Origin: Sterolibacterium sp.
GTDB taxonomy: Bacteria > Pseudomonadota > Gammaproteobacteria > Burkholderiales > Rhodocyclaceae
DNA: 64,000 nucleotides
Reading direction: 5' to 3'
Assembly (NCBI GenBank): GCA_019105045.1
Contig: JAHRWT010000091.1
Location: forward strand, 1 to 64,000
The notes beneath the pieces were generated by a model that saw only the letters and a program-made list of their open reading frames with translations, had not been told where the DNA came from and did not search any database. Positions 12,238 through 31,715 of the stretch are shown piece after piece. Each line of letters opens with the position of its first letter. Positions within the stretch are counted from its first letter, which is position 1. Position numbers and translations under genes: made by a program.

Positions 12238-12546
12238 TGACACACCTGCCTTCCTTCTTTCCTTCTCCCGGCGCCAGATCGCGGCACGCCATGGACTTGA
12301 CGCAACTTGCTGACCGCCTGCCCCCGGCCTGGTTCGCAAAAAACATCAAACCAAGCATTTTTTGCACCATGACGCGGCTTTGGCAGCGGCATGAAAAACA
12401 AAATGACCCCACACGGCAGCTCGTGGAAAATCCATCCTGCTGTTTTTTGTATTTTGTATTATGCTCAATCAGCTCGAAACATGTTGATCCGTGCAAACCA
12501 CACCCCATTTCGCCAACTGCCATCGCCGACATCGCCGCCATCCACC

Positions 12547-15171
12547 ATGGTAGATCACTTGCCGACCCGGACCGCCACCACGTCGCCAGCTGGCAATACG
12601 ACTGATGACAACACCCGTCGACTCAAGCTGCTCATTGCCACGGCTTCTGCCGAAGCGACCCGGCAATTGCTGATCCATCTGCAGCAAAACGGTTTTGTTC
12701 CCGAAACCACACACCTGCACACGCTGGAAGACCTGAAGAATCATCTCCCCAGCCAGCGCTGGGATCTGATGCTGCTTGACCCGCAACTGGCCAAACTGGA
12801 TCTTTTGGCCGCCCTGACGATACGCCAGGCGCAGGCTTCCGACCTTCCCTGCCTGATCATTGCCGAGCAGATCGAAGAAACGCTGGCGCTGGCAGCCATG
12901 CAGGCCGGCGCCAGCGACTTCATCGAAACCCGCCACGATCTGAAACGCCTCATTCCCGCCATCCAGCGTGAACTGCAAGCTGCCGAAGCGCGCCAGCAGC
13001 GCCAGCAGGCCCGGGACGCGGCCCGTCAGGCAATGGAAGCCCAGCTCGTTGCCGTCTCCCGCTTCCGCCGCCTGACCGAAGCCATCCCTGAATGCGTCTG
13101 GATTTTCGATCTCGACACCCGCCGCATGAGTTTCGTCAGTTCGGCTTACGAGCGCATCTGGGGACGTCACATCCAGGATTTACTGGATGATCGCAAGGAT
13201 TGGCTGCGTCACATTCATCCCGATGACCAATTGCGTCTGAAACAAGCACGCAATGCGGCCAAGCTGGGCGGCCTTGATGAGGAATTCCGCGTCATTCGTC
13301 CCAATGGCGAAATCCGCTGGCTGCGGCTGATCACTTTTCCGATCCGCGACCTCATTGACCGGGTACAAAGCATAGGCGGCGTAGCCACCGACATCACCAA
13401 TTTCATCAAGCAACGCGACCAGCTGAGTGTCGCCCTGGCCGAGCAGCATCACCGGGCTGAAATACAGAAGCTGATTCTTGATGCGCTGCCAGCAGACATC
13501 GCCCTGCTCGACAGCAACGGCTACATCATCGAAACCAACGCCTCCTGGGAACAATCCACCGTCCAGAAAGGCATGTTGCAATACGCGACGGGCGCCAATT
13601 ATCTACAGGTCTGCGAAGAACTGGCGCGGCAGCAGAAAGAGGATCTCCGTCGCAGTTTCGAAGACATGCTTGCCGCCGTGCGCGGTATTCTGGCGGGCGG
13701 TTATGAAACGGCCAGCCGCATCTATCCGAGCACGATCGACGATCAGAAACGCTGGTTCCGCAATACCGTCGCCCCCCTGCACACCCAGGAAAAACGCGGG
13801 GCCGTGGTCATGCATGTCGAAATCACCGAAAGTATGCTGGCCGAGCAGCGGCTGCTGGAACTTTCCCATTACGACAGCCTGACCATGCTGCCCAACCGCC
13901 TGCTCTTCCGCGACCGTCTGACCACTGCCTTGACCATGGCCCGGCGCAATCGCAGCAATCTGGCGGTCTGTTTCATCGACCTCGACCGTTTCAAGAGCAT
14001 CAACGAATCCCTGGGCCACACGATCGGCGATCTGCTGCTGCTCGAAGTTGCCCGCCGCCTCCAGGACTGCGTGCGTGACAGCGACACCGTCTGCCGCCTG
14101 GGTGGCGACGAATTTGCCCTGCTGCTGCCTGAAATGGCCGACCAGCAGGACAGCATCATCGTCGCCGAACGGATCATCGAATCGCTGGGAGCTCCCTGCC
14201 TGATCGAAGGCCACGAACTGTTCGTGACCGCCAGCATCGGCATCACGCTTTATCCAAATGACGCCGACGACCCCGATGTGCTGCTGCGCAATGCCGATGC
14301 GGCGATGTATCGCGCCAAGGAAGAAGGCCGCAACAATTACCAGTTCTTCACCATCGAAATGAACGCCAATGCGGTGGAAAAGATGAAGCTGGAACGCGAT
14401 CTGCGTTACGCCCTCGATAACGAGGAATTCGTGCTGCACTACCAGCCCAAGGTCAGTTGCCAGACCGGGCGCATCGTTGGCTTTGAAGCCTTGCTGCGCT
14501 GGCAGCATCCACAACGCGGCATGGTATCGCCTTTCGAATTCATCCCCTTGCTCGAAGAAACCGGGCTGATCGTCGCAGTCGGCGCCTGGGTGCTGCAAAC
14601 AGCCTGTCATCAGGCGCAGACCTGGCGCCAGGCCGGCCTGGGAGCGCTGAACATGGCGGTCAATGTTTCCGGCAAACAGGTCAATCCGTTGCTACATGAC
14701 ACCGTGCTCGAAGCATTGACCGCCAGCGCCCTGCCCGCCGACCAGCTGGAACTGGAACTGACCGAAAGCCAGCTGATGAAGGATGCCGAAGGCATCATCA
14801 CCACCTTGCAGCAACTCAAGGACACCGGGTTGCATATTTCGGTTGATGATTTCGGCACGGGCTATTCCAGCCTGGCCTATCTCAAGCGTTTCCCGATCGA
14901 CACCCTGAAGATCGACCGCGCCTTCGTCCGCGACCTGGCCGACGATGCCAATGATGTCTCGATTGCCAAGGCGATCATCACCCTGGCCCACAGCTTCAAT
15001 CTCAAAGTGGTTGCCGAAGGTGTGGAAACCGAAGACCAGCTGGCCTTGCTGGCCGCCAACCACTGCGACATTATCCAGGGGTTTTATTTCAGTCGCCCGC
15101 TGCCGGCCAGTGAGGCCACGGCCATGTTGCAACAGAACCGTTGTCTGCCCGGGCATCTGCTCGGCCACTGA
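12547..15171 (+). CDS. PAS-GGDEF-EAL protein with N-terminal receiver-like region
   Basis: RDSDTVCRLGGDEF (GGDEF plus upstream RxxD I-site), GFEALLRWQHP, VDDFGTGYSSLAYLKRFPIDTLKID; start chosen at MVDHLPTR. Confidence 0.92.
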   Translation: MVDHLPTRTATTSPAGNTTDDNTRRLKLLIATASAEATRQLLIHLQQNGFVPETTHLHTLEDLKNHLPSQRWDLMLLDPQLAKLDLLAALTIRQAQASDLPCLIIAEQIEETLALAAMQAGASDFIETRHDLKRLIPAIQRELQAAEARQQRQQARDAARQAMEAQLVAVSRFRRLTEAIPECVWIFDLDTRRMSFVSSAYERIWGRHIQDLLDDRKDWLRHIHPDDQLRLKQARNAAKLGGLDEEFRVIRPNGEIRWLRLITFPIRDLIDRVQSIGGVATDITNFIKQRDQLSVALAEQHHRAEIQKLILDALPADIALLDSNGYIIETNASWEQSTVQKGMLQYATGANYLQVCEELARQQKEDLRRSFEDMLAAVRGILAGGYETASRIYPSTIDDQKRWFRNTVAPLHTQEKRGAVVMHVEITESMLAEQRLLELSHYDSLTMLPNRLLFRDRLTTALTMARRNRSNLAVCFIDLDRFKSINESLGHTIGDLLLLEVARRLQDCVRDSDTVCRLGGDEFALLLPEMADQQDSIIVAERIIESLGAPCLIEGHELFVTASIGITLYPNDADDPDVLLRNADAAMYRAKEEGRNNYQFFTIEMNANAVEKMKLERDLRYALDNEEFVLHYQPKVSCQTGRIVGFEALLRWQHPQRGMVSPFEFIPLLEETGLIVAVGAWVLQTACHQAQTWRQAGLGALNMAVNVSGKQVNPLLHDTVLEALTASALPADQLELELTESQLMKDAEGIITTLQQLKDTGLHISVDDFGTGYSSLAYLKRFPIDTLKIDRAFVRDLADDANDVSIAKAIITLAHSFNLKVVAEGVETEDQLALLAANHCDIIQGFYFSRPLPASEATAMLQQNRCLPGHLLGH

Positions 15172-18585: not shown

Positions 18586-21486
18586 ATGTCAATCCGAAAC
18601 AATGCAGCCCTTTTTGGCACAGGATCCGCAGTGTATTCCTTGAGCAAACCCGCCCCCGGCTGGCTGATTCAACTGGTCGAAAGACTGCCCCATCACAAGA
18701 CCACGCCATCGGCGCTGATGTGGCGCTACGGCTTTGCCTTGTTCACCATCAGCCTGGCCTGGCTCAGCCGCGAGATCATCGGCGCACCCGATACGGGCCT
18801 GCCATTGCTGACCTTCTTCAGCGCCGCCGCCTTGACCCTGATCCTCACCGGCATCGGTCCGGGCATAGTGGCTGCCGTACTGGGCATGTTTCTGGGCGCC
18901 TGGCTGTACATGCCGCCGTATGGCATGTTCAGTTTCGAATTCCAGCACAGCAATGTCCTGTCGAATCTGGCTTTCGCCTTCAACTTCACCCTGCTGGCCC
19001 TGATCGTCAAAGCCGGACAGGTCTACCTCGACAAATACCTGGCCAATCGCCGGCTGCTCGCGGCCATCGTCGAAGGCAGCAAGGACGCCATCTATGTCAA
19101 GGATCTGCAGGGCTGCTACCGTTTCATGAACACGGCCGGCACACGCCATCTGGGCCAGTCCTTCGATATCGACAACATTCTTGGCCAGCAGGATCAGCAA
19201 CTGTTCTCGGCCTCGTTCCTCGACATGATCCGCGCCCAGGACCAACAGGTTCTGTCACAAAAACGCATCATCGAGTTTGAAACGCCGCTGGAAACTGCAC
19301 CGGGTGAAATTCACCACTTCCACAGTACCAAGGGACCGCTGCTCGATCACACAGGGCGCACCATCGGTCTGTTCGGTATTGAACACGACATCACCCACAT
19401 CAAGTCGATCGAAGCCGCTCTGCAGGAAAAACTCAGCATCCAGGAACAATTCTTCAACCTGGCCACCCTGGTGCCCGGTGTCATCTGCACCTATCGACGC
19501 AATGACAATGGCCAGCCCTGTTTCCCCTATGCCAGCGCCGGCCTGAAGGAAATCTTCGGCCTGAATCCTGAAGACGTGCGCGAGGACGGCAGCGCGGCCT
19601 TTGCCTTGATACACCCCGAAGATCAGCCACAGGTACTGGACACCACCAAACAGGCCATGCGCTATGGCAGCATGTGGAATACGGCCTTCCGGGTCAGCCA
19701 TCCGCGCAAGGGCGAGATCTGGGTCGAAGGCTTTCTGCGCCCCATCCTGCAAGCCGACGGCAGCACGCTATGGCATGGCTATCTGCAGGACATCACCGCC
19801 AGACGCCACGCTGAAGAACAGATGCGGCTGTCCGCCAGCGTCTTCGACACCATCGCCGAAGGCATCGTGGTCACCAGCCCGGACAACCGCATCCTGACCG
19901 TCAATGAAGCCTTCATTGAAATGACCGGCTACAGCCGTGCAGAGCTGCAAAACAAAGCGCCTCGCCTGATGCACGCCGAACGGCATGACGAGGCCTTTTT
20001 CAAGAACATGTACCAGGAATTGCTGGCCAATGACCGCTGGGAAGGCGAAGTCTGGAATCGCCGCAAGAACGGCGAGCTGTACCTGAAATGGCTGTCCGTG
20101 CGGGTCATCCGCGACAATGCAGAAAATGTCATCAGCTATATCAGCATTTTCCGTGACATCAGCCTGGTCAAGAACTCCGAGGACCGGGTGGAGTTCCTCG
20201 GCACCCACGACGAACTGACCCAACTGCCCAACCGTACCCTGCTCAACGACCGTCTGCAGCAAGCCGTCAGCCGGGCCGAACGCAGCAATCATCATCTGGC
20301 GCTGATGTTCGTCGATATCGACAACTTCAAGCTGGTCAACGAAACCTACGGCCATACCCTGGGCGACAATCTGCTGCTGCAAACAGCCGATCGCCTCAAG
20401 GACTGCGTGCGTGCTGAAGACACCGTGGCACGCATGGGCGGTGACGAATTCGTCATGATCCTCGAAGACTGCGACCGCGATGCCGTCATGCACACCGCCG
20501 AACGCATCCTGGCGCGACTCTCCGAAACCTACCGGGTAGGCGATCAGGAATGCTATACCGCAGCCAGCATCGGCATCAGCTTCTATCCTGACGATGCCAC
20601 TGAGCCCAGTGATTTGCTGCGCTACGCCGACAACGCCATGTATCGCGCCAAGGAAAAAGGCAAGAACAACATCCAGTTGTTCAGCGAAGACATGGCCGAA
20701 CGCTCACGCAAGCGCCTCAACATCGAACGCGACCTGCGCAACGCCTTCCAGAAGAATGAGTTCTTCCTCGAATATCAGCCCCAGGTCGACCTGTCCTCAC
20801 ACAGCCTGATTGGCGTCGAAGCGCTGATCCGCTGGCGGCATGGCGGCAAGACCGTGCCGCCGCTGGACTTCATCCCGATAGCCGAAGAATCCCGCCTGAT
20901 CATACTCATCGGCGAATGGGTGGTGCAGGAAGCCTGCCGCCAGATCAAGCAATGGGACCGCATCGGTCTGCCGCCGTTCACCGTCAGCGTCAATATCTCC
21001 GCCCGCCATTTTCTTGACCCGAACATGGTCCTGCGCCTGCACAGCATCGTTGAGCAGGCTGAGGTCGCCCCGCAGCGGCTGTGCCTGGAAGTCACCGAAG
21101 GCGCCATGGCCGACATCAACAACACCATGACCATGCTGCGCGAACTGGAAGAACTCGGTTATCGCACCAGCATCGATGATTTCGGTACCGGCTTCTCCTC
21201 ACTGTCGCATTTGAAGCGCTTCCCCCTGCACGAACTGAAAATCGACCGCAGCTTTGTGGACGGCATCATCGACGATCAGGACGACCGCGCCATCACCTCA
21301 ACCATCATTTCCATGGCCGGCAACCTGGAACTGAGCGTGGTTGCCGAAGGCATCGAAACCAGCGAGCAGCTCTCCGAACTGCATGAGATGGGCTGCCAGA
21401 TCGGCCAGGGTTATTACTTTTCCAAGCCGCTCACGGCAGACCGTTTCAACGAATGGCTGCGCAACAAGACCGCCGCAAATTCTTGA
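18586..21486 (+). CDS. Membrane PAS-GGDEF-EAL protein with DUF4118-like TM region
   Basis: N-terminal TMs (LILTGIGPGIVAAVLGMFLGAWLYMPPYGMFSFE), PAS repeats, RAEDTVARMGGDEF, GVEALIRWRH, IDDFGTGFSSLSHLKRFPLHELKID. Confidence 0.93.
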   Translation: MSIRNNAALFGTGSAVYSLSKPAPGWLIQLVERLPHHKTTPSALMWRYGFALFTISLAWLSREIIGAPDTGLPLLTFFSAAALTLILTGIGPGIVAAVLGMFLGAWLYMPPYGMFSFEFQHSNVLSNLAFAFNFTLLALIVKAGQVYLDKYLANRRLLAAIVEGSKDAIYVKDLQGCYRFMNTAGTRHLGQSFDIDNILGQQDQQLFSASFLDMIRAQDQQVLSQKRIIEFETPLETAPGEIHHFHSTKGPLLDHTGRTIGLFGIEHDITHIKSIEAALQEKLSIQEQFFNLATLVPGVICTYRRNDNGQPCFPYASAGLKEIFGLNPEDVREDGSAAFALIHPEDQPQVLDTTKQAMRYGSMWNTAFRVSHPRKGEIWVEGFLRPILQADGSTLWHGYLQDITARRHAEEQMRLSASVFDTIAEGIVVTSPDNRILTVNEAFIEMTGYSRAELQNKAPRLMHAERHDEAFFKNMYQELLANDRWEGEVWNRRKNGELYLKWLSVRVIRDNAENVISYISIFRDISLVKNSEDRVEFLGTHDELTQLPNRTLLNDRLQQAVSRAERSNHHLALMFVDIDNFKLVNETYGHTLGDNLLLQTADRLKDCVRAEDTVARMGGDEFVMILEDCDRDAVMHTAERILARLSETYRVGDQECYTAASIGISFYPDDATEPSDLLRYADNAMYRAKEKGKNNIQLFSEDMAERSRKRLNIERDLRNAFQKNEFFLEYQPQVDLSSHSLIGVEALIRWRHGGKTVPPLDFIPIAEESRLIILIGEWVVQEACRQIKQWDRIGLPPFTVSVNISARHFLDPNMVLRLHSIVEQAEVAPQRLCLEVTEGAMADINNTMTMLRELEELGYRTSIDDFGTGFSSLSHLKRFPLHELKIDRSFVDGIIDDQDDRAITSTIISMAGNLELSVVAEGIETSEQLSELHEMGCQIGQGYYFSKPLTADRFNEWLRNKTAANS

Positions 21487-21591: not shown

Positions 21592-21957
21592 GTGAAAACC
21601 ATATTGCTGGTAGATGATTCAGCCACCATTCTCATGTCGATCTCCAGCATACTCGGCAAGGCAGGCTATGCCGTGGAAAAAGCCGGCAATGCCGCCGATG
21701 GCCTGAAAGTATTCGCTGCTGGCAAGAAAATCGACCTGCTCATCACCGACCTCAACATGCCCGGCATGAACGGCATCGACTTCATCAAGGAAGTGCGCAA
21801 GCTGCCGAATTACAAATTCATGCCCATACTTTTTCTCACCACCGAATCCCAGCAGGACAAGCGCATGGAGGCCAAGGCCGCCGGCGCCTCGGGCTGGCTG
21901 GTCAAGCCCGCCACCGCAGACGAACTGCTCAACACCATCAAACTGGTCATCCGCTGA
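21592..21957 (+). CDS. cheY: CheY-like single-domain response regulator
   Basis: KTILLVDDSATILMSISSILGKAGYAVEKA...LLITDLNMPGMNGIDFIKEVR...PILFLTTES...GASGWLVKPA. Confidence 0.9.
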   Translation: MKTILLVDDSATILMSISSILGKAGYAVEKAGNAADGLKVFAAGKKIDLLITDLNMPGMNGIDFIKEVRKLPNYKFMPILFLTTESQQDKRMEAKAAGASGWLVKPATADELLNTIKLVIR

Positions 21958-22040
21958 AGTGACAGGCCCGCAACCCGCCGGTTGCGGCAACCCACCCACA
22001 CACGTTGTTCCCGGCGTGCGATGCGCCCGCCACCGCCTCA

Positions 22041-22103
22041 TCCACCGCCTCCACCGCCTCCACCGCCTTCACCGCCTTCACCGCCTCCACCGCCTCCACC
22101 GCC
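22041..22103. repeat. Tandem nonamer (tccaccgcc/ttcaccgcc) x7
   Basis: Seven contiguous 9-bp units read directly in the spacer between cheY and the first mcp. Confidence 0.9.
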
Positions 22104-22190
22104 TGCCAGTCTCGTGAATCTCCCTCACCAGGAAAATGACGAGATGCGCAATCTACGTGCAATTGCTTCTCGATCTTTCGTCAAATACCT

Positions 22191-23474
22191 ATGTCGAACA
22201 GAACACTGATCCGTAATCTGTTTGCGGTCTATCTGACCGTTGCCACGGGCTGCGCCATCGTCGTGTATTTTTTCAATGACTGGTTTCACAACGACCTTAC
22301 CGCGTTCTTCGGGATTTCCTCACCGCTGGCTGACGTGATCGGCAGCGTGCTGATGATTACCATGGCCTTTGCCGCCCAGCGCCTGATTGCCCATCTGTAT
22401 TACGGCGACCAGATGTTCGGCATGCAGCGCCAAATGGAAGACTGCAGGCTGCGCGAAAACAGCCGGACAGCCGCCATCAGCAAGATCAGCGGCGAACTGC
22501 GCCAGATCGGCGATTTCAACCAGGTCTTGCGCAGTCAGCTGGAACTGGTCGTCGGCGAAACCGAAAAAGCCGCCTATGACATTGCCGACCGCCTGCAAAG
22601 CATCGATGGCGTGGTCAACAACCTGAATACTTTTGTTTCGACCACGGCCAATGTCTCGCTCAGCCTGCAGGAAAATTCCGAAGTCTGCGTGGACAGCAAC
22701 AAGGACATGCTGGCCACCATCGACAACTACATCAAACAGCGGCTGGAAAGCACGGAATCCGAACGGCAGCGCATACAGCAGGTAGTTGAGGAAATCCAGT
22801 CTCTCGACAGCCTGGTACAACTGGTGCGCAACATCTCCGGCCAGACCAACCTGCTGGCGCTCAACGCGGCCATCGAAGCGGCCCGCGCCGGTGAAGTCGG
22901 CCGTGGCTTTGCCGTCGTGGCCGACGAAGTGCGCAAGCTATCCACCGCCACCGACGACGCGGTGTCGAAAATCAGCCTGGGCATCGACAGCGTCAAACAC
23001 TCCACTTACGCCCATTTCAAGGACAAGCTGTCCAACGAACAGCTGGATGCCGAAAGAAACACCTTGCTGGGCTTTGTCAGCCAGCTCGATCAGCTGGGCA
23101 CCAATTACCAGGAATTGAGAGATCACAGCGGCAACGCCATGGCGCAGATTTCCGCCAGCAGCCACCAGCTGACCGACATGTTCATGCAGGCGCTGGCCAG
23201 TGTGCAGTTTCAGGATACGGTGCGTCAGCAGATCGAGCAGATCATCACTGCCCTGAAACAATTCGATACGCACGCCGCCATGCTGGCCGAGCAGCTGGAA
23301 AGCAACCGCGACACCCCCGCTGATTTCAAACCGCTGACCGAGCAGCTGGAACAGATTTTCAGCCGCTACGTCATGAATTCCCAACGAAAATCACACCAGG
23401 CCGCGCTGGGTATGGATGACCAGGGCCATGCCCAGGAAAACGCCAACGAGCCGCCCAAGATCGAATTGTTCTGA
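22191..23474 (+). CDS. Membrane-anchored chemoreceptor-like protein with C-terminal CheZ-like FQDxxxQ extension
   Basis: Two N-terminal TM segments; MCP hairpin tip [35 protein letters not shown]-terminal [15 protein letters not shown] and terminal KIELF. Confidence 0.85.
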
Positions 23475-23642
23475 ATTTCATCCTGCCGGCCGAAGCAAGG
23501 CAGGCGGCTGATCCCCCTCCCTGATCCGCCCCTGTGAAACCCAGGGTTTGACGAGGTTGCATGAAGTGACATGACGCGGACGACTCGCCTGGCACCACAC
23601 ACCAGGAGCCAGTTATCCGCTCAAATGAAAGGAGGTTGCGAC

Positions 23643-23966
23643 ATGAACACAGCGACAGGCAGCAACGGCGCTGAACGCATCTGCATCAACGAAGACATGA
23701 CGATCTACCATGCCGAAACGCTCAAGAAAGTGCTGATGCAGGCCATTCAGCGCAGCCAGCGGCTGGAACTGGACCTCTCCCAGGTCGCCGAGATCGACAC
23801 CTCGGGCATCCAGCTGCTGATGCTGGCCAAGCGTGAAAGCCAGACACGCGGCCAATCGCTCGACATCATTGCCCACAGCCCGGCGGTGCATGAACTGATC
23901 GACTTCTTCAACATTGCCGGCTACCTGGGTGACCCGCTGGTCATCCCGGCCCGTCCGGCCAACTGA
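23643..23966 (+). CDS. STAS-domain protein (anti-sigma factor antagonist-like)
   Basis: LELDLSQVAEIDTSGIQLLMLAKRES STAS signature; SD aaaggagg directly upstream. Confidence 0.88.
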   Translation: MNTATGSNGAERICINEDMTIYHAETLKKVLMQAIQRSQRLELDLSQVAEIDTSGIQLLMLAKRESQTRGQSLDIIAHSPAVHELIDFFNIAGYLGDPLVIPARPAN

Positions 23967-23982
23967 ACGAGGCAGCGTGGCC

Positions 23983-26244
23983 ATGGAAGAAATTCTCAGC
24001 GTCTTCATCCAGGAATCCCGCGAGCAGATTGCCGCCATGGAAGCCGAACTGCTCGGTCTGGAGCAAGGCAGCAATGCCAACGATGCGGAAGTGCTCAACG
24101 CCATTTTTCGTGCCGCCCACACCATCAAGGGAGGGGCTGGCGTGGTCGAGCTGGGCATGGTGGAAAGTTTCACCCACGTGCTTGAAAACACGCTCGACAA
24201 ACTGCGCAACAACGAAATCCAGGTCAATGATTCCTTGATCAGCATCCTGCTCAACTGCTGTGATCACATCGGCGCCCTGCTCGATCACGTCGAATCCAGC
24301 GCAAGTGATGAAGATGCCGCATTGCAACAGGATGGCGCGGCCATTGCCGAAAAACTGCGTGCCTGCGTCGCTGCACAGGGCGTCTGCGAAACCGGCGGCA
24401 GCGGGCTGGCAACCACGTCCCAGGCCGCCAGCCCCAGCGAGCACAACAGCGAACTGGAAAGCGAAGGCAGCGGCAAATCCATCAATGATTGCTGGCACAT
24501 CTCGGTGCGCTTCGGCGAAAACGTGCTGCGCAACGGCATGGACCCGGCCGCCATCCTGCGCTATCTGCTGACATTGGGCGAAATCGTGCATATCGCCACG
24601 CTGGTCGATGGCATGCCGGCGGCCGAAGACATGGATCCGGAATCCTGCTGGCTGGGCTGCGAAATCAGTTTCCGCAGTACGGCCGACAAGGCCGCCATCG
24701 AACGCGCCTTCAGTTTCGTCCAGGACGACTGCGAATTGCGCATCCTGCCGCCCGACAGCAAGGTGGCCGACTACCTGCAACTGATCAGTGAATTACCTGA
24801 AGAACCGATGCGTCTGGGCGAAATCCTGGTCAAGAGTGGCGCCCTGACCCACTCCGAGTTGATGAGCGGTCTGGCGCAGCAGCAGGCCCAGGCGACCAGC
24901 GAGGCATGCCGCGCAGAAACGCCCTCGCCACTTGGCGACATATTGATCGAGCAAAAAGTGGTGCAGCCGGAAATCGTCGAAGCGGCCGCCACCCGGCAAA
25001 AACAGGTCAACGACAAGAAAGCCGAGGAATCCCGCCTGATTCGCGTCCATGCCGGCAAGCTCGATCATCTCATCGATCTGGTTGGCGAACTGGTGATCGC
25101 CGGCGCCAGCGCCAATCTGCTGGCACAGAACAGCCACCTGCCGCAACTGGTCGAAGCCACCTCCCTGCTCAGTCGGCTGGTCGAGGACATCCGCGATTCC
25201 GCCCTGCAGCTGCGCATGGTGCAGATTGGTGAAACCTTCAACCGTTTCCACCGTGTGGTCCGTGATACCGCCAAGGAACTGGGCAAGGAAATCGAGCTGG
25301 TGATTCACGGCGCGGACACCGAGCTGGACAAGTCCGTGGTGGAAAAAATCGGTGACCCGCTGATGCACCTGGTGCGCAACGCCATGGATCACGGTCTGGA
25401 AACGCCCGAGGTGCGCATCGCCCGGGGCAAGCCGCCATGCGGCCGTCTGGAACTGAACGCCCATCATGACTCGGGCAATATCGTCATCGAGATCACCGAC
25501 GATGGTGCGGGCCTCAACCGTGCCAAGATCCTCGCCAAAGCCATCGAGCGCGGTCTGGTCAATCAAGGGCAGACGCTGAGCGATGAGGAAATCTACAACC
25601 TGATTTTTGAAGCGGGCTTTTCCACTGCCGACAAGGTAACCAATCTTTCCGGACGCGGCGTGGGCACGGATGTGGTCAAACGCAATATCCAGGCCCTGCG
25701 CGGCAGTGTCGAGGTCAGCTCCAGCGAAGGGGCCGGCTCGCGCTTCACCATTCGTCTGCCGCTGACCCTGGCCATCATCGACGGTTTCCTGGTGGAAGTC
25801 GGCAAGTCCTCCTTCGTCGTGCCGCTCGACATGGTGCTGGAGTGCCTGGAACTGTCCGAAGCCGACAAGCAGGCCAGCGCCACGCGCAGCTATCTCAACC
25901 TGCGCGGCGAAGCCTTGCCGTTCATCCGTCTGCGCGACCTGCTGGCGATCGAGGGCCAGCCACCACGGCGCGAAAACGTCGTCGTCGTGGCTTTTGGCAG
26001 CCAGAAAGCCGGACTGGTGGTCGATCAACTCCTGGGTGAATTCCAGACGGTGATCAAACCGTTGGGAGAGATTTTCCGCCACCTGCACGGCATCTCGGGA
26101 TCAACCATCCTGGGCGGCGGCGAAGTGGCCTTGATTCTTGACATACCGGCACTCGTACAGCAGGCGGCGAGCCGGGAAAACGAACAAACCGCCAGCGTCA
26201 CGCACTCAACCCGGCCGGGAATGGCCACAACGGAAATTCTGTGA
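23983..26244 (+). CDS. cheA: Chemotaxis histidine kinase CheA with internal MshEN-like double motif
   Basis: Hpt AAHTIKGGAG; kinase HLVRNAMDHGLETPE, ITDDGAGLN, GRGVGTDVVKRNI; C-terminal CheW-like domain. Confidence 0.95.
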   Translation: MEEILSVFIQESREQIAAMEAELLGLEQGSNANDAEVLNAIFRAAHTIKGGAGVVELGMVESFTHVLENTLDKLRNNEIQVNDSLISILLNCCDHIGALLDHVESSASDEDAALQQDGAAIAEKLRACVAAQGVCETGGSGLATTSQAASPSEHNSELESEGSGKSINDCWHISVRFGENVLRNGMDPAAILRYLLTLGEIVHIATLVDGMPAAEDMDPESCWLGCEISFRSTADKAAIERAFSFVQDDCELRILPPDSKVADYLQLISELPEEPMRLGEILVKSGALTHSELMSGLAQQQAQATSEACRAETPSPLGDILIEQKVVQPEIVEAAATRQKQVNDKKAEESRLIRVHAGKLDHLIDLVGELVIAGASANLLAQNSHLPQLVEATSLLSRLVEDIRDSALQLRMVQIGETFNRFHRVVRDTAKELGKEIELVIHGADTELDKSVVEKIGDPLMHLVRNAMDHGLETPEVRIARGKPPCGRLELNAHHDSGNIVIEITDDGAGLNRAKILAKAIERGLVNQGQTLSDEEIYNLIFEAGFSTADKVTNLSGRGVGTDVVKRNIQALRGSVEVSSSEGAGSRFTIRLPLTLAIIDGFLVEVGKSSFVVPLDMVLECLELSEADKQASATRSYLNLRGEALPFIRLRDLLAIEGQPPRRENVVVVAFGSQKAGLVVDQLLGEFQTVIKPLGEIFRHLHGISGSTILGGGEVALILDIPALVQQAASRENEQTASVTHSTRPGMATTEIL

Positions 26245-26256
26245 GGAGATAACAAT

Positions 26257-27882
26257 ATGTTCAAAAACCTGAGGATCGGTACGCGTCTAGGGATCGCCTT
26301 TGCCTTCGTGCTCGTCATGATGTCGATCATCGCCGCCCTTGGCATCGTGCGCATGAGCAGCCTCAATGACGACATCCACCTGATCGTCAACGACCGCGCG
26401 GTGAAGGTGAAGCAGGCCAACGACGTGATCGACGCGCTCAACATCATTGCCCGACGCATGCGCAACAGCCTGCTGGAGAAGGAAGCCGACAACATCCGAC
26501 GCGAGCTCGACGACATCCCCGCGCAGCGCAAGATCGTCGGCGACATTCTGGAGGTGCTGCACACTTCGATCACGCTCGACAAGGGCAAGGAAATCCTCAA
26601 GCAGATCGACGACAATCGGGCCATCTATATACCGCTGCAGAACAAGTTCATCGACCTGGTCAACGCCGGCAAGCGGGAGGAAGCGACCGAATTCATGCTA
26701 GGCACGATCAACCAGACGCAGGGCGCCTACCTGAAGAGCGTCAACGACCTTATCATCTTCCAGACCGAGCTGATGCAAGAGGCCGGCAGGAATGCCACCA
26801 ATGCCTATGAGCAGGGGCGCATGGTGATGTTCACCGTTTCGTTGATCGCGCTGATTGTCTCGATCCTGTTCGGTTTCTGGATCACGCGCAGCATCACCCG
26901 GCCGGTGGCCCAGGCCGCCCATGCCGCCAATGAGCTGGCCGAGGGCAACCTGATGGTCCGCGTGGAGTCCAGCAGCCGCGATGAAATCGGCCAGATGATG
27001 GCTTCCATCCAGAGCATGATCACCAAGCTGACGAGCATCATCAGTGAAGTCAATGTGTCTGCCGATACGCTCAACACGGCGGCTGGTCAGGTTTCCGTCA
27101 CCGCCCAGACATTGAGCGAAGGCGCCTCCGAGCAGGCCGCTTCAGTGGAAGAAACCACGGCTTCGGTTGAACAGATGACGGCCTCGATCACGCAGAACAC
27201 CGAAAATGCCACGGTCACCGACAGCATGGCGACCTCTGCCGCGAAGCAGGCTGAAGAAGGCGGTATTGCCGTCAAGGAAACGGTTGAAGCCATGAAGCAG
27301 ATCGCCGGCCGGATCGGCATCATCGACGACATTGCCTACCAGACCAATCTGCTGGCCCTGAATGCGGCCATCGAAGCGGCGCGGGCGGGTGAGCACGGCA
27401 AGGGCTTTGCCGTGGTCGCCGCTGAAGTGCGCAAGCTGGCCGAGCGTTCTCAAGTCGCCGCCCAGGAAATCGGCGAGCTGGCCGGTTCCTCGGTCACCAT
27501 GGCAGAAAAAGCCGGCAAACTGCTTGACGAAATGGTGCCCTCGATTCGCAAGACCTCCGATCTGGTGCAGGAAATCGCCGCAGCCTCGCAGGAGCAATCG
27601 TCCAGCGTCGGCCAGATCAACATGGCCATGGGGCAGCTCAATCAGGCCACCCAGCAAAATGCTTCCGCTTCGGAAGAACTGGCCGCCACCGCCGAAGAAA
27701 TGGGTGGCCAGGCCGGTCAACTACAGCAACTGATGGCCTTTTTCCGGCTGGAGGACACTGCCCAGACGGCCAAGCAGCGTCCGCACGCCGCCGCAGCGAC
27801 CGACAAAGCCGGCCAGCGGACACAGGCCAAAACCAAAGCCGCTGCCGCAACCAACAGCGAGCATGGTTTTGAACGCTTCTGA
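26257..27882 (+). CDS. Methyl-accepting chemotaxis protein (4HB-like sensor, HAMP)
   Basis: [32 protein letters not shown]2/HAMP ([26 protein letters not shown]), [41 protein letters not shown]. Confidence 0.95.
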
Positions 27883-27893
27883 ACGGGGGTGTC

Positions 27894-28460
27894 ATGGTAA
27901 CCACAACCCACAATCCAGGCGCCGGCCTGCCTGCGACGAATCAGGCGGCCAAACTGCTGGCCTCGGCCGGTGAAGCCAATCAATACCTGACTTTCAATCT
28001 GGGCGGCGAGATGTACGCCCTGGGCATACTCAACATCAAGGAGATCATTGAATTCGGCCAGCTCACCGAAGTTCCGATGATGCCCAGCTTCATGCGCGGC
28101 GTCATCAACCTGCGTGGCGCCGTGGTGCCGGTGATCGACCTGGCCGCCCGCTTCAGCAACACGCCTTCGACCATACAGCGGCGCACCTGCATCGTCATCG
28201 TCGAGATCCCGCAGGATGACGGCCATCAGGACATCGGCATCCTGGTTGACGCGGTTTCCGAAGTACTGGAAATTCCCGCCAGCGAGATCGAACCGGCCCC
28301 CACCTTCGGGGCCAGGATACGCAGCGACTTCATCGCCGGCATGGGCAAGATCGATGGCCGTTTCGTCATCATCCTCGAAATTCGCCGCGTACTCTCCATC
28401 GACGATCTGGCTTCGCTGGCCGACATTGGCCAGACCCGGGCCAGCGAGCACAACGACTGA
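27894..28460 (+). CDS. cheW: Chemotaxis coupling protein CheW
   Basis: YLTFNLGGEMYALGILNIKEIIEF...MRGVINLRGAVVPVIDLAARF...DIGILVDAVSEVLEIPASEIEPAP. Confidence 0.95.
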   Translation: MVTTTHNPGAGLPATNQAAKLLASAGEANQYLTFNLGGEMYALGILNIKEIIEFGQLTEVPMMPSFMRGVINLRGAVVPVIDLAARFSNTPSTIQRRTCIVIVEIPQDDGHQDIGILVDAVSEVLEIPASEIEPAPTFGARIRSDFIAGMGKIDGRFVIILEIRRVLSIDDLASLADIGQTRASEHND

Positions 28461-28501
28461 CTGCCGTTGCCGGATCCTGCCGCGCATTTGCAGCCCATCC
28501 C

Positions 28502-28545
28502 CAACCCCGGACGCACAGCACTCTCCTGTGCGCCCGGGGTTGTTT
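28502..28545 (+). terminator. Hairpin downstream of cheW
   Basis: caaccccggacgcacag / ctgtgcgcccggggttg 17-bp arms with one mismatch, followed by tttgctt. Confidence 0.55.
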
Positions 28546-28671
28546 GCTTACCCTCGCGGTGATCCGTCAAGTATCATTCCGTAAACCTTCCGGCAGCGTT
28601 CTTCTTTGCTTGCACACCCTGCCTTGTCGGGTGCCACGCCGTCCTCCTGATGGACCCGAAACACCAAGATC

Positions 28672-29484
28672 ATGATGACTCCAACCAAAATCACGCCAGC
28701 CGAGTTTGCGCAGTTTCAGGCGCTGATCTACAAGATTGCCGGCATCAACCTTTCAGAAGCCAAACAGGTGCTGCTGGTGGGCCGCCTCGGCCGCCGACTG
28801 AAACATCATGGCCTGACGAGCTACGGTGAATATTACAAGCTGGTGAATTCGCCACAGCACGCCGATGAGCTGCAGCTGATGGTGGATCTGCTGACCACCA
28901 ACGAAACCTATTTCTTCCGCGAACCCAAGCATTTCGAATATTTCAGCCAGCACATCCTGCCCAAGCGGGCGGTCGGGCGCTCATTCGATGTCTGGAGCGC
29001 AGCCAGTTCGACCGGTGAGGAAATCTACACCATCGCCATGGTGCTGGCCGACACCCTGGGAATCAAGGGACAATGGACGGTCACCGGCTCGGACATCAGC
29101 CAGTCCGTGCTGGCCACCGCCCGCCGTGGCCAGTATCAACTGGATCGAACCCGTGGCCTGCCGCCCGAGTATCTGCGCAAATACTGTCTCAAAGGCGTGG
29201 GCGAAAACGAAGGCAGTTTTCTCATCATGCCTGAACTGCGCCAGCACACGCGCTTTCTGCAAGTCAATCTGAACAAGCCTTTTCCCAACCTGGGCAAGTT
29301 CCATGTGATCTTCCTGCGCAATGTCATGATCTACTTTGACAACAACACCAAGCGTCAGGTGGTCGAGCGACTGGTTCAGCAGTTGCATCCCGGCGGCCAT
29401 CTGATCATCGGCCATTCGGAAAGCCTCAACGGCATCACCGACTGCGTCAAGGCCATCAAGCCCACCATTTATCAGGCGACCTGA
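28672..29484 (+). CDS. cheR: Chemotaxis methyltransferase CheR
   Basis: LTTNETYFFREPKHFEYF...VWSAASSTGEEIYTIAMVL...VIFLRNVMIYFD...GGHLIIGHSESL. Confidence 0.96.
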   Translation: MMTPTKITPAEFAQFQALIYKIAGINLSEAKQVLLVGRLGRRLKHHGLTSYGEYYKLVNSPQHADELQLMVDLLTTNETYFFREPKHFEYFSQHILPKRAVGRSFDVWSAASSTGEEIYTIAMVLADTLGIKGQWTVTGSDISQSVLATARRGQYQLDRTRGLPPEYLRKYCLKGVGENEGSFLIMPELRQHTRFLQVNLNKPFPNLGKFHVIFLRNVMIYFDNNTKRQVVERLVQQLHPGGHLIIGHSESLNGITDCVKAIKPTIYQAT

Positions 29485-29505
29485 ACCTGCACGGATGACG
29501 GACTC

Positions 29506-30039
29506 ATGACAACTCATCGGGTTGCCACAGCTGCGCCACACATCGTACTTGCGCCAGGCGAATTCCACTTCGCTGCCGCACCCGGACTGATCAGCACGCT
29601 GCTGGGCTCCTGTGTCGCGATCACGCTCTGGCATCCATTGCGCCGCCTGGGCGGCATGTGCCATATCCTGCTGCCCGGCCGGCTGCCTCACGCTGGCGCA
29701 GCAGCCGCCTCGCCATCACAACCGATGACTCTGGCCGGGCGCTATGCTGAAGAAGCGTTCATGCTGTTCGATACGGCCATCGCCCGATATGGCTGCCAGG
29801 CCCATGAGTATCAGGCCAGGCTGTTCGGCGGTGGCAACATGTTTCCCGGCATGAAAACCTTCAACCCGATCGGCGAGCAGAATATCGAAGCCGCCCACCG
29901 CTTCATCACCCAGCGCGGTATGCCCCTGCTCGAAGAGCACACCGGCGGCACGGGCCGTCGCAAACTGTTGTTTGATCTGGAAAGCGGCGCGGTCAGGCTG
30001 CAATATATTGATCCCCATGCCGTACAGGAGCAGAAATGA
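29506..30039 (+). CDS. cheD: Chemoreceptor glutamine deamidase CheD (copy 1)
   Basis: [32 protein letters not shown]...[12 protein letters not shown]. Confidence 0.93.
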
Positions 30040-31112
30040 GCAAGATCCGTGTGATGATTGTCGATGACTCCGCCGTGGTGCGACAGACCATCCGCGAAAA
30101 TCTCGAACGCGAGCCGGATATCGAAGTCATCGGCGCGGCAGCGGATCCGCTGTTTGCACTCGACAAGATGAAGAACGACTGGCCGGATGTCATTACGCTG
30201 GACATCGAAATGCCGCGCATGGATGGCCTGACCTTTCTGCGCAAGATCATGGCCGAACATCCAACGCCGGTCATCATCTGCTCCTCGCTGGCTGAAAAAG
30301 GCGCGGAAACCACCATGGAGGCATTGGCCGCCGGCGCCGTCAGCGTCATCACCAAACCCAAGATCGGCGTCAAACAGTTTCTTCACGATGCCTCGAACGA
30401 TCTGGTCAGCGCCGTGCGCGCCGCTGCGCACAGCAACAAGCGAGCGCTGGGGCGCGCTCTGCACAGTGCAATGACGCCGCCGCCCAAGCTCACCGCCGAT
30501 GCCATGCTCGCTGCACAGGCGGCCTCATCGACAGCCATGGCCAAGACCACCGAGGGCATCGTCGCCATCGGCACCTCGACGGGTGGCACGCAGGCACTGG
30601 AGGTCGTTCTGAAAGCGCTGCCCGCCGTCTGCCCGGGCATCGTCATCGTCCAACACATGCCGGAAAAATTCACCGGCATGTTCGCCGCCCGCCTCGATTC
30701 GATCTGCCAGCTGGAAGTGCGCGAAGCCCAGAACGGTGACCGGGTGATCCCCGGCCGCGCGCTGATCGCTCCCGGCGGCCGCCACATGATGCTGCGCCGC
30801 AGCGGCGCCCAGTACATCGTTGAAGTGGCCGACGGACCACTGGTCAATCGCCACAAGCCCTCCGTCGATGTGCTGTTTCGCTCGGTGGCGCAAACGGCGG
30901 GACGCAATGCGCTGGGCATCATCATGACCGGCATGGGCGATGATGGCGCGCGCGGCCTCAACGAAATGCACCAGGCCGGCGCACGTACCGTTGCCCAGGA
31001 TGAAGCCAGCTGCGTGGTTTATGGTATGCCCAAGGAAGCCGTGCGGCTGGGCGGCGTCGACAAGAGCGTGCCACTCGACCTGATCGCCCGCGAGATCATG
31101 GCTTTCAAATAA
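30036..31112 (+). CDS. cheB: Protein-glutamate methylesterase CheB
   Basis: Receiver ([15 protein letters not shown]...[19 protein letters not shown]) plus CheB catalytic domain ([53 protein letters not shown]). Confidence 0.97.
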
Positions 31113-31130
31113 ATCACTTCAGGCAGCACC

Positions 31131-31715
31131 ATGAATACCCGCAAGGAACCCACCAGTCAGGAACTTGAACGTACCGCACAAACGATCCATCCGGGTGAAT
31201 GGCGGGTCGATCAACTGCGGCCAATCGCCACCCTGCTGGGTTCCTGCATCGCTGTCTGTCTGTACGATCCCAAGCTGAAGTTTGGCGGCATGAACCACTT
31301 CCTGCTGCCCAACAGCGACCCGAACAAGGCACAGGATGACCTGTTGCGCGGCGACTATTCCATGGAAGTCCTGGTCAATGCCATGATGGCCAAGGGCGCA
31401 CAGAAAAAACGATTGCGGGCCAAGGTATTTGGCGGCGGCAATCCGGTATCGGCCATCAGCCTGTCGATTGGCGAGCGCAATGCGCAATTCGCCAGCGAAT
31501 GGCTGGCCCGCGAAGGCATCGCAGTGGATGCCAGCGATGTCGGCGGCCCCTGGTCGCGCAAGCTGCTGTTCGATCCCCACAGCGGTATCGCCTGGTGCAA
31601 ACGCATCCTCGGCCACCTGGCCATTTCAGGCGATGTGGCGCGCAAGGAAGCCGAATACGCCCGCAGTCTGAACAAGCCGGCACCAAGCGCAGAAAAGAAG
31701 ATCGAACTGTTCTGA
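31131..31715 (+). CDS. cheD: Chemoreceptor glutamine deamidase CheD (copy 2) with KIELF C terminus
   Basis: ATLLGSCIAVCLYDPKLKFGGMNHFLLPNSD...AKVFGGGNPVSAISLSIGERNAQFASEWLAREGI; ends EKKIELF. Confidence 0.92.
   Translation: MNTRKEPTSQELERTAQTIHPGEWRVDQLRPIATLLGSCIAVCLYDPKLKFGGMNHFLLPNSDPNKAQDDLLRGDYSMEVLVNAMMAKGAQKKRLRAKVFGGGNPVSAISLSIGERNAQFASEWLAREGIAVDASDVGGPWSRKLLFDPHSGIAWCKRILGHLAISGDVARKEAEYARSLNKPAPSAEKKIELF

Follow-up and report, generated by a model that had tools for sequence, protein, structure and literature searches.

The CheA kinase encoded by a Sterolibacterium genome carries, between its P2-like region and P3, a pair of motifs that sequence comparison confirms as a real, conserved MshEN-type ligand module. 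Input of c-di-GMP to this kinase, as the original prediction had proposed, is the leading reading of the module, with about an even chance of being correct; binding of c-di-GMP and gating of CheA by it are plausible from the motif sequences. The gene lies in a stretch of 64,000 nucleotides (the window) of contig JAHRWT010000091.1, belonging to a draft genome of 2.36 Mb in 121 contigs that is 85% complete. The pairing of the two modules is already known: Wang et al. (2016; PMC5013675), who defined the MshEN motif, name CheA in one clause of their main text, where it is merely listed among the MshEN fusion partners. No experimental test of an MshEN-CheA fusion was found in the literature searched.

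The assignment of the gene to CheA is based on the presence of Hpt, P3 dimerisation, HATPase and CheW-like domains and on its location in a chemotaxis cluster (Table 1). The P2-like region is not recognised by Pfam. The ATG start codon at 23983 is shared with the orthologs, and the nearest named relatives of the protein are found in the Rhodocyclales (Sterolibacterium, Sulfuritalea, Azospira, Azoarcus, Thauera, and Accumulibacter).

Table 1. Features of the cheA locus, with positions in the window.
Feature	Position	Strand	Evidence
PAS-GGDEF-EAL gene, 105 bp before cheY; may be a local c-di-GMP enzyme	18586..21486	+	Pfam; linkage not conserved by synteny
Chemotaxis cluster: CheY-like, MCP, STAS, CheA, MCP, CheW, CheR, CheD, CheB, second CheD	21592..31715	+	Pfam; CheY-MCP-STAS-CheA order also present in contigs of named Rhodocyclales
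cheA: Hpt (P1), P2-like region, MshEN-type motif pair, P3, P4, P5	23983..26244	+	Pfam Hpt, H-kinase_dim, HATPase_c, CheW
MshEN-type motif I, CheA residues 277-300 (R277-Q300)	24811..24882	+	Translation, NF053729, conserved in 119 distinct orthologous segments
Variable 15-residue linker joining the motifs (6-28 residues in relatives)	24883..24927	+	Alignment of relatives
MshEN-type motif II, CheA residues 316-339 (P316-Q339), partly diverged (P1, K10, A21)	24928..24999	+	Translation, conservation
Linker KQVNDKKAEESRLIR, charged and mostly helical, joining motif II to the P3 dimerisation domain	25000..25044	+	Conserved in alignments; predicted helix 329-350 extends into the linker

Translation of positions 24811-24999 gives RLGEILVKSGALTHSELMSGLAQQ, the linker, and PLGDILIEQKVVQPEIVEAAATRQ, in exact agreement with the two MshEN-like motifs originally reported. 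Motif I is complete, as had been claimed, and fits the consensus RLGxxhhxxGhhxxxxLxxxLxxQ, with Ala at the first of the two hydrophobic positions after Gly10. Motif II is incomplete, retaining L2, G3, and Q24 and deviating at four positions (P1, K10, V17, and A21). The loss of the leading Arg, replaced by Pro, and the Ala at one hydrophobic site (position 21) had been recognised earlier; the replacement of Gly10 by Lys had been missed. Since Lys stands in place of Gly10, motif II fails the relaxed search pattern of the 2016 paper at this position. The spacer between the motifs is three times the length of the 5-residue spacer of MshE.

The homology of this segment to MshEN domains is supported by several lines of evidence. 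NF053729, the MshE-related NCBIfam model named c-di-GMP_motif (53 aa, two motifs, curated cut-off of 38 bits), matches the whole CheA with 33.4 bits (E=2.9e-8), which is under the cut-off, and the isolated segment with 40.7 bits (E 1.5e-10), which is over it; all 41 orthologous segments of a set of 41 are matched at E<=1. A profile built from these 41 segments and compared with all PDB sequences gave PilF (6e-17), PilB (about 1e-6), and MshE (PDB 5HTL; 1e-4) as the top matches. The Ala/Pro/Glu-rich composition and variability of the inter-motif linker could indicate that amphipathic helices of a low-complexity linker resemble the motifs by chance. This explanation was rejected and is left with a negligible probability, given the HMM and PDB profile matches, the conservation in 119 distinct segments, and the outcome of shuffling the CheA protein 100,000 times, which never produced a relaxed motif pair at a spacing of 24-60 aa. 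A weak Pfam match of CheA to DUF4388 (E 0.02-0.12, under the cut-off), which may reflect similar helices, was also set aside.

The Pfam search for MshEN, proposed earlier as a check, gave no match of PF05157 to CheA, for a trivial reason. The genome has an MshEN gene of its own on contig 1, and in its product the PF05157 match directly follows that of NF053729; PF05157 thus models the C-terminal part of the domain, which begins after the ligand motifs, and is the wrong model for testing the CheA motifs. From the extent of the two models, CheA therefore appears to hold only the four-helix ligand-binding half of MshEN, without the C-terminal subdomain. The Pfam family named MshEN omits the c-di-GMP motifs, and annotation relying on Pfam alone will therefore miss fusions limited to the N-terminal part of MshEN, like that of CheA.

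Conservation was analysed in 119 distinct Rhodocyclales-type CheA segments, comprising orthologs from relatives and named genomes; judging from this alignment, the motif pair is not private to the Sterolibacterium genome. In motif I, G3, L6, and E16 are invariant, and R1 (111 of 119), L2 (111), G10 (118), L17 (112), L21 (118), and Q24 (118) are nearly so. Entropy at the motif I ligand positions is below that of random motif positions (permutation p=0.005). The same permutation revealed no unusual conservation of the motif II ligand positions (p=0.16). Invariant positions of motif II are G3, A20, and Q24, followed by V17 (115 segments). Its residue 1 is most often Pro (69), followed by Gln (26) and Arg (7), with His also occurring; Gly is present at residue 10 in only 11 of 119 segments, and residue 21 is Ala in 46, Val in 43, Leu in 22, and Ile in 7. 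Since motif I is near-fixed and motif II is variable outside Gly and Gln, the alignment points to one pristine half-site and one that has drifted while retaining its Gly and Gln.

These patterns bear on the main alternative, which we rate as possible but on the unlikely side, namely that the MshEN-derived pair no longer binds c-di-GMP and serves as a structural helical element, spacing P1/P2 from P3 or contacting CheW, the receptor, the STAS protein, or CheY. The absence of G10 and, often, of L21 from motif II is consistent with such a role, as is the complete loss of the pair in some orthologs, which are scattered on the tree. Relatives of MshEN without binding are also known, including GspE/XpsE (PMC5013675) and PilF GSPII-A (PMC12002112). 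However, GSPII-A has lost both Gln residues and the motif-II Arg1, whereas in CheA Gln24 of both motifs and Arg1 of motif I are found in 93-100% of the 119 segments; these are polar ligand-contact residues for which a structural requirement is not evident. In several genomes (G006, G020, and G033), this type of CheA is present as 2-4 paralogs, among which the motif pair has decayed to different degrees. An example of decay from another genome, L042, carries the changes Q24L and G10T in motif I.

The best argument for a purely structural element comes from a distant CheA lineage. When the segment profile, which extends into the beginning of P3, was run against 399 genomes of the phylum, further CheAs with the motif pair were found, some with normal spacing and others compact (L150, L155, L157-L162, L164, and L165). 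In the compact proteins the end of motif I, including its Gln, and the linker are missing, and Leu21 is almost directly followed by motif II (L21-x-PLG). In a tree of the P3-P5 region, a quick tree with long branches, the compact form occupies a separate deep part, apart from the large group with the pair to which the CheA of the window belongs, and the CheAs without the pair are scattered. Since the compact CheAs keep the pair without the motif-I Gln, a ligand-free structural role is a real rival to c-di-GMP binding. If the preferred reading, binding of c-di-GMP, is correct, no binding is predicted for this distant lineage, in which the motif-I Gln is missing.

Full-length CheA was modelled with AlphaFold2 from a 41-row alignment, with a mean pLDDT of 82.5 and values of about 80-93 over the motif segment. 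Helices are predicted at residues 278-284 and 290-307 in the motif I half and at 317-323 and 329-350 in the motif II half, with boundaries that coincide in motif position between the two halves, which fits the published alpha1-alpha2/alpha3-alpha4 layout of MshEN (PMC5013675). The model of the 113-residue segment in isolation was poor (pLDDT 64), and Foldseek found no PDB fold match for it; with the full-length model, solely CheA and kinase structures were among the matches listed. The structure prediction suggested earlier as a possible refutation thus gave a divided answer: the secondary structure agrees with an MshEN pair, and a fold-level match for the isolated segment is missing.

Among characterized proteins, MshE of Vibrio cholerae (PDB 5HTL; Wang et al., 2016) shares with CheA the tandem RLGxx(L/V/I)(L/V/I)xxG...LxxxLxxQ motifs and a four-helix layout consistent with the predicted CheA helices. 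It differs from CheA in having the C-terminal subdomain, the short spacer, and none of the four substitutions of motif II. The closest solved relative of the segment by profile is the c-di-GMP-binding GSPII-C domain of PilF from Thermus thermophilus, whose motif II begins PLGEILVE and, in the alignment, carries the same Val at position 17 as CheA, and whose motif linker is likewise longer than 5 residues. Unlike the chemotaxis kinase, PilF is a pilus ATPase, and motif II of its GSPII-C retains Gly10 and Leu21. The residue at the first position of that motif is Pro335, yet the domain binds c-di-GMP (PMC11731258), and Pro1 of the CheA motif II is, by this analogy, tolerated for binding. In the non-binding GSPII-A domain of PilF, binding was restored by introducing both Gln residues and the motif-II Arg, with Gly3 required for high affinity; changing Ile to Leu at positions 17 and 21 was not needed (PMC12002112). 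The minimal set for measurable binding derived from PilF comprises both Gln24 and a suitable residue 1, with Gly3 adding high affinity. CheA, with both Gln24, both Gly3, and R1/P1, has this set if Pro is accepted at residue 1 of motif II; with R, K, L, or P allowed at this residue, 76 of the 119 segments pass.

Since both Gln and both Gly3 residues are kept and the PilF precedents tolerate Pro1 and Val17, binding of c-di-GMP by CheA would be expected. Judged against these precedents, three features of the CheA of the window pose novel risks to binding, namely A21 and K10 of motif II and the length of the linker. Because of the Ala and the Lys, the affinity for c-di-GMP is probably modest, weaker than the 0.5 uM of MshE.

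We therefore consider the segment as a candidate minimal MshEN ligand module in the P2-P3 linker of a CheA that occurs widely in the Rhodocyclales, and its role in binding c-di-GMP and tuning the kinase as a proposition about evenly balanced between right and wrong. One c-di-GMP molecule would most likely be bound between the two half-sites, by Arg277 of motif I, the Leu-Gly turn of each motif, and the two Gln residues at position 24 (300 and 339). Because the last predicted helix of motif II continues in the direction of P3, ligand binding may rigidify the P2-P3 linker; this would alter the reach of P1/P2 to the kinase domain and thereby tune autophosphorylation or transfer to CheY. A more speculative and very improbable arrangement is trans pairing across the CheA dimer, in which the long variable linker would allow motif I of one protomer to join motif II of the other, so that c-di-GMP, as a clasp, would hold the P1/P2 arms fixed over P3 and would switch the chemoreceptor array.

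Bound c-di-GMP could instead steer the assembly of CheA, through array recruitment, polar localisation, or partner choice, rather than its kinase activity; we regard this as unlikely. In the histidine kinase SgmT of Myxococcus, c-di-GMP reportedly has a role in localisation. SgmT is described as a c-di-GMP receptor (PMC3509222), and the MshEN domains of pilus ATPases influence how a complex functions; both are in line with control of assembly. The CheA module, however, adjoins the P3 dimerisation domain through a predicted helical connection, a place suited to control of the kinase.

Direct input of c-di-GMP to histidine kinases, as proposed here for CheA, has precedents in Caulobacter, where ShkA is reported to be under direct c-di-GMP control (PMC7010744) and CckA is named as a c-di-GMP receptor (PMC7288161). 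Unlike CheA, these are not chemotaxis kinases, and the ligand is bound at the catalytic domain of CckA and at the pseudo-receiver domain of ShkA rather than at an MshEN module. Pseudomonas MapZ-CheR and PilZ chemoreceptors such as Azorhizobium Cbp1 likewise bring c-di-GMP into chemotaxis signalling; the PilZ proteins in these systems, however, target CheR or the receptors rather than CheA itself. If c-di-GMP binds the CheA segment, the chemotaxis kinase itself would read the second messenger of the sessile/motile switch without a PilZ adaptor. Such an input would extend to a large environmental group comprising Azoarcus, Thauera, Azospira, Sulfuritalea, Accumulibacter, and their relatives, and would turn the single clause of 2016 into a testable mechanism, with R277, Q300, and Q339 as residues for point mutants.

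The original prediction had also drawn on two GGDEF-EAL genes described as immediately upstream of cheA. One of them, the PAS-GGDEF-EAL gene, does lie near the chemotaxis genes, 2.5 kb before cheA, and its domain matches are intact; between the other (12391-15171) and the chemotaxis genes lie those for a histidine kinase and a response regulator. Because the genome contains about 22 GGDEF genes and the linkage is rarely kept, a GGDEF-EAL gene upstream of cheY being absent from most relatives with enough upstream sequence, this adjacency is weak evidence for c-di-GMP input and was rejected as a strong argument. Conserved in most named loci is the order of CheY-like, MCP, STAS, and CheA genes, followed by MCP and CheW. 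The STAS-domain gene (23643-23966) is located directly before cheA and occupies the same place in most named relatives, in which it is also preceded by a short MCP-like gene and cheY. At the other end of the cluster, cheB is flanked by two different CheD genes (29506-30039 and 31131-31715), both of which match Pfam CheD.
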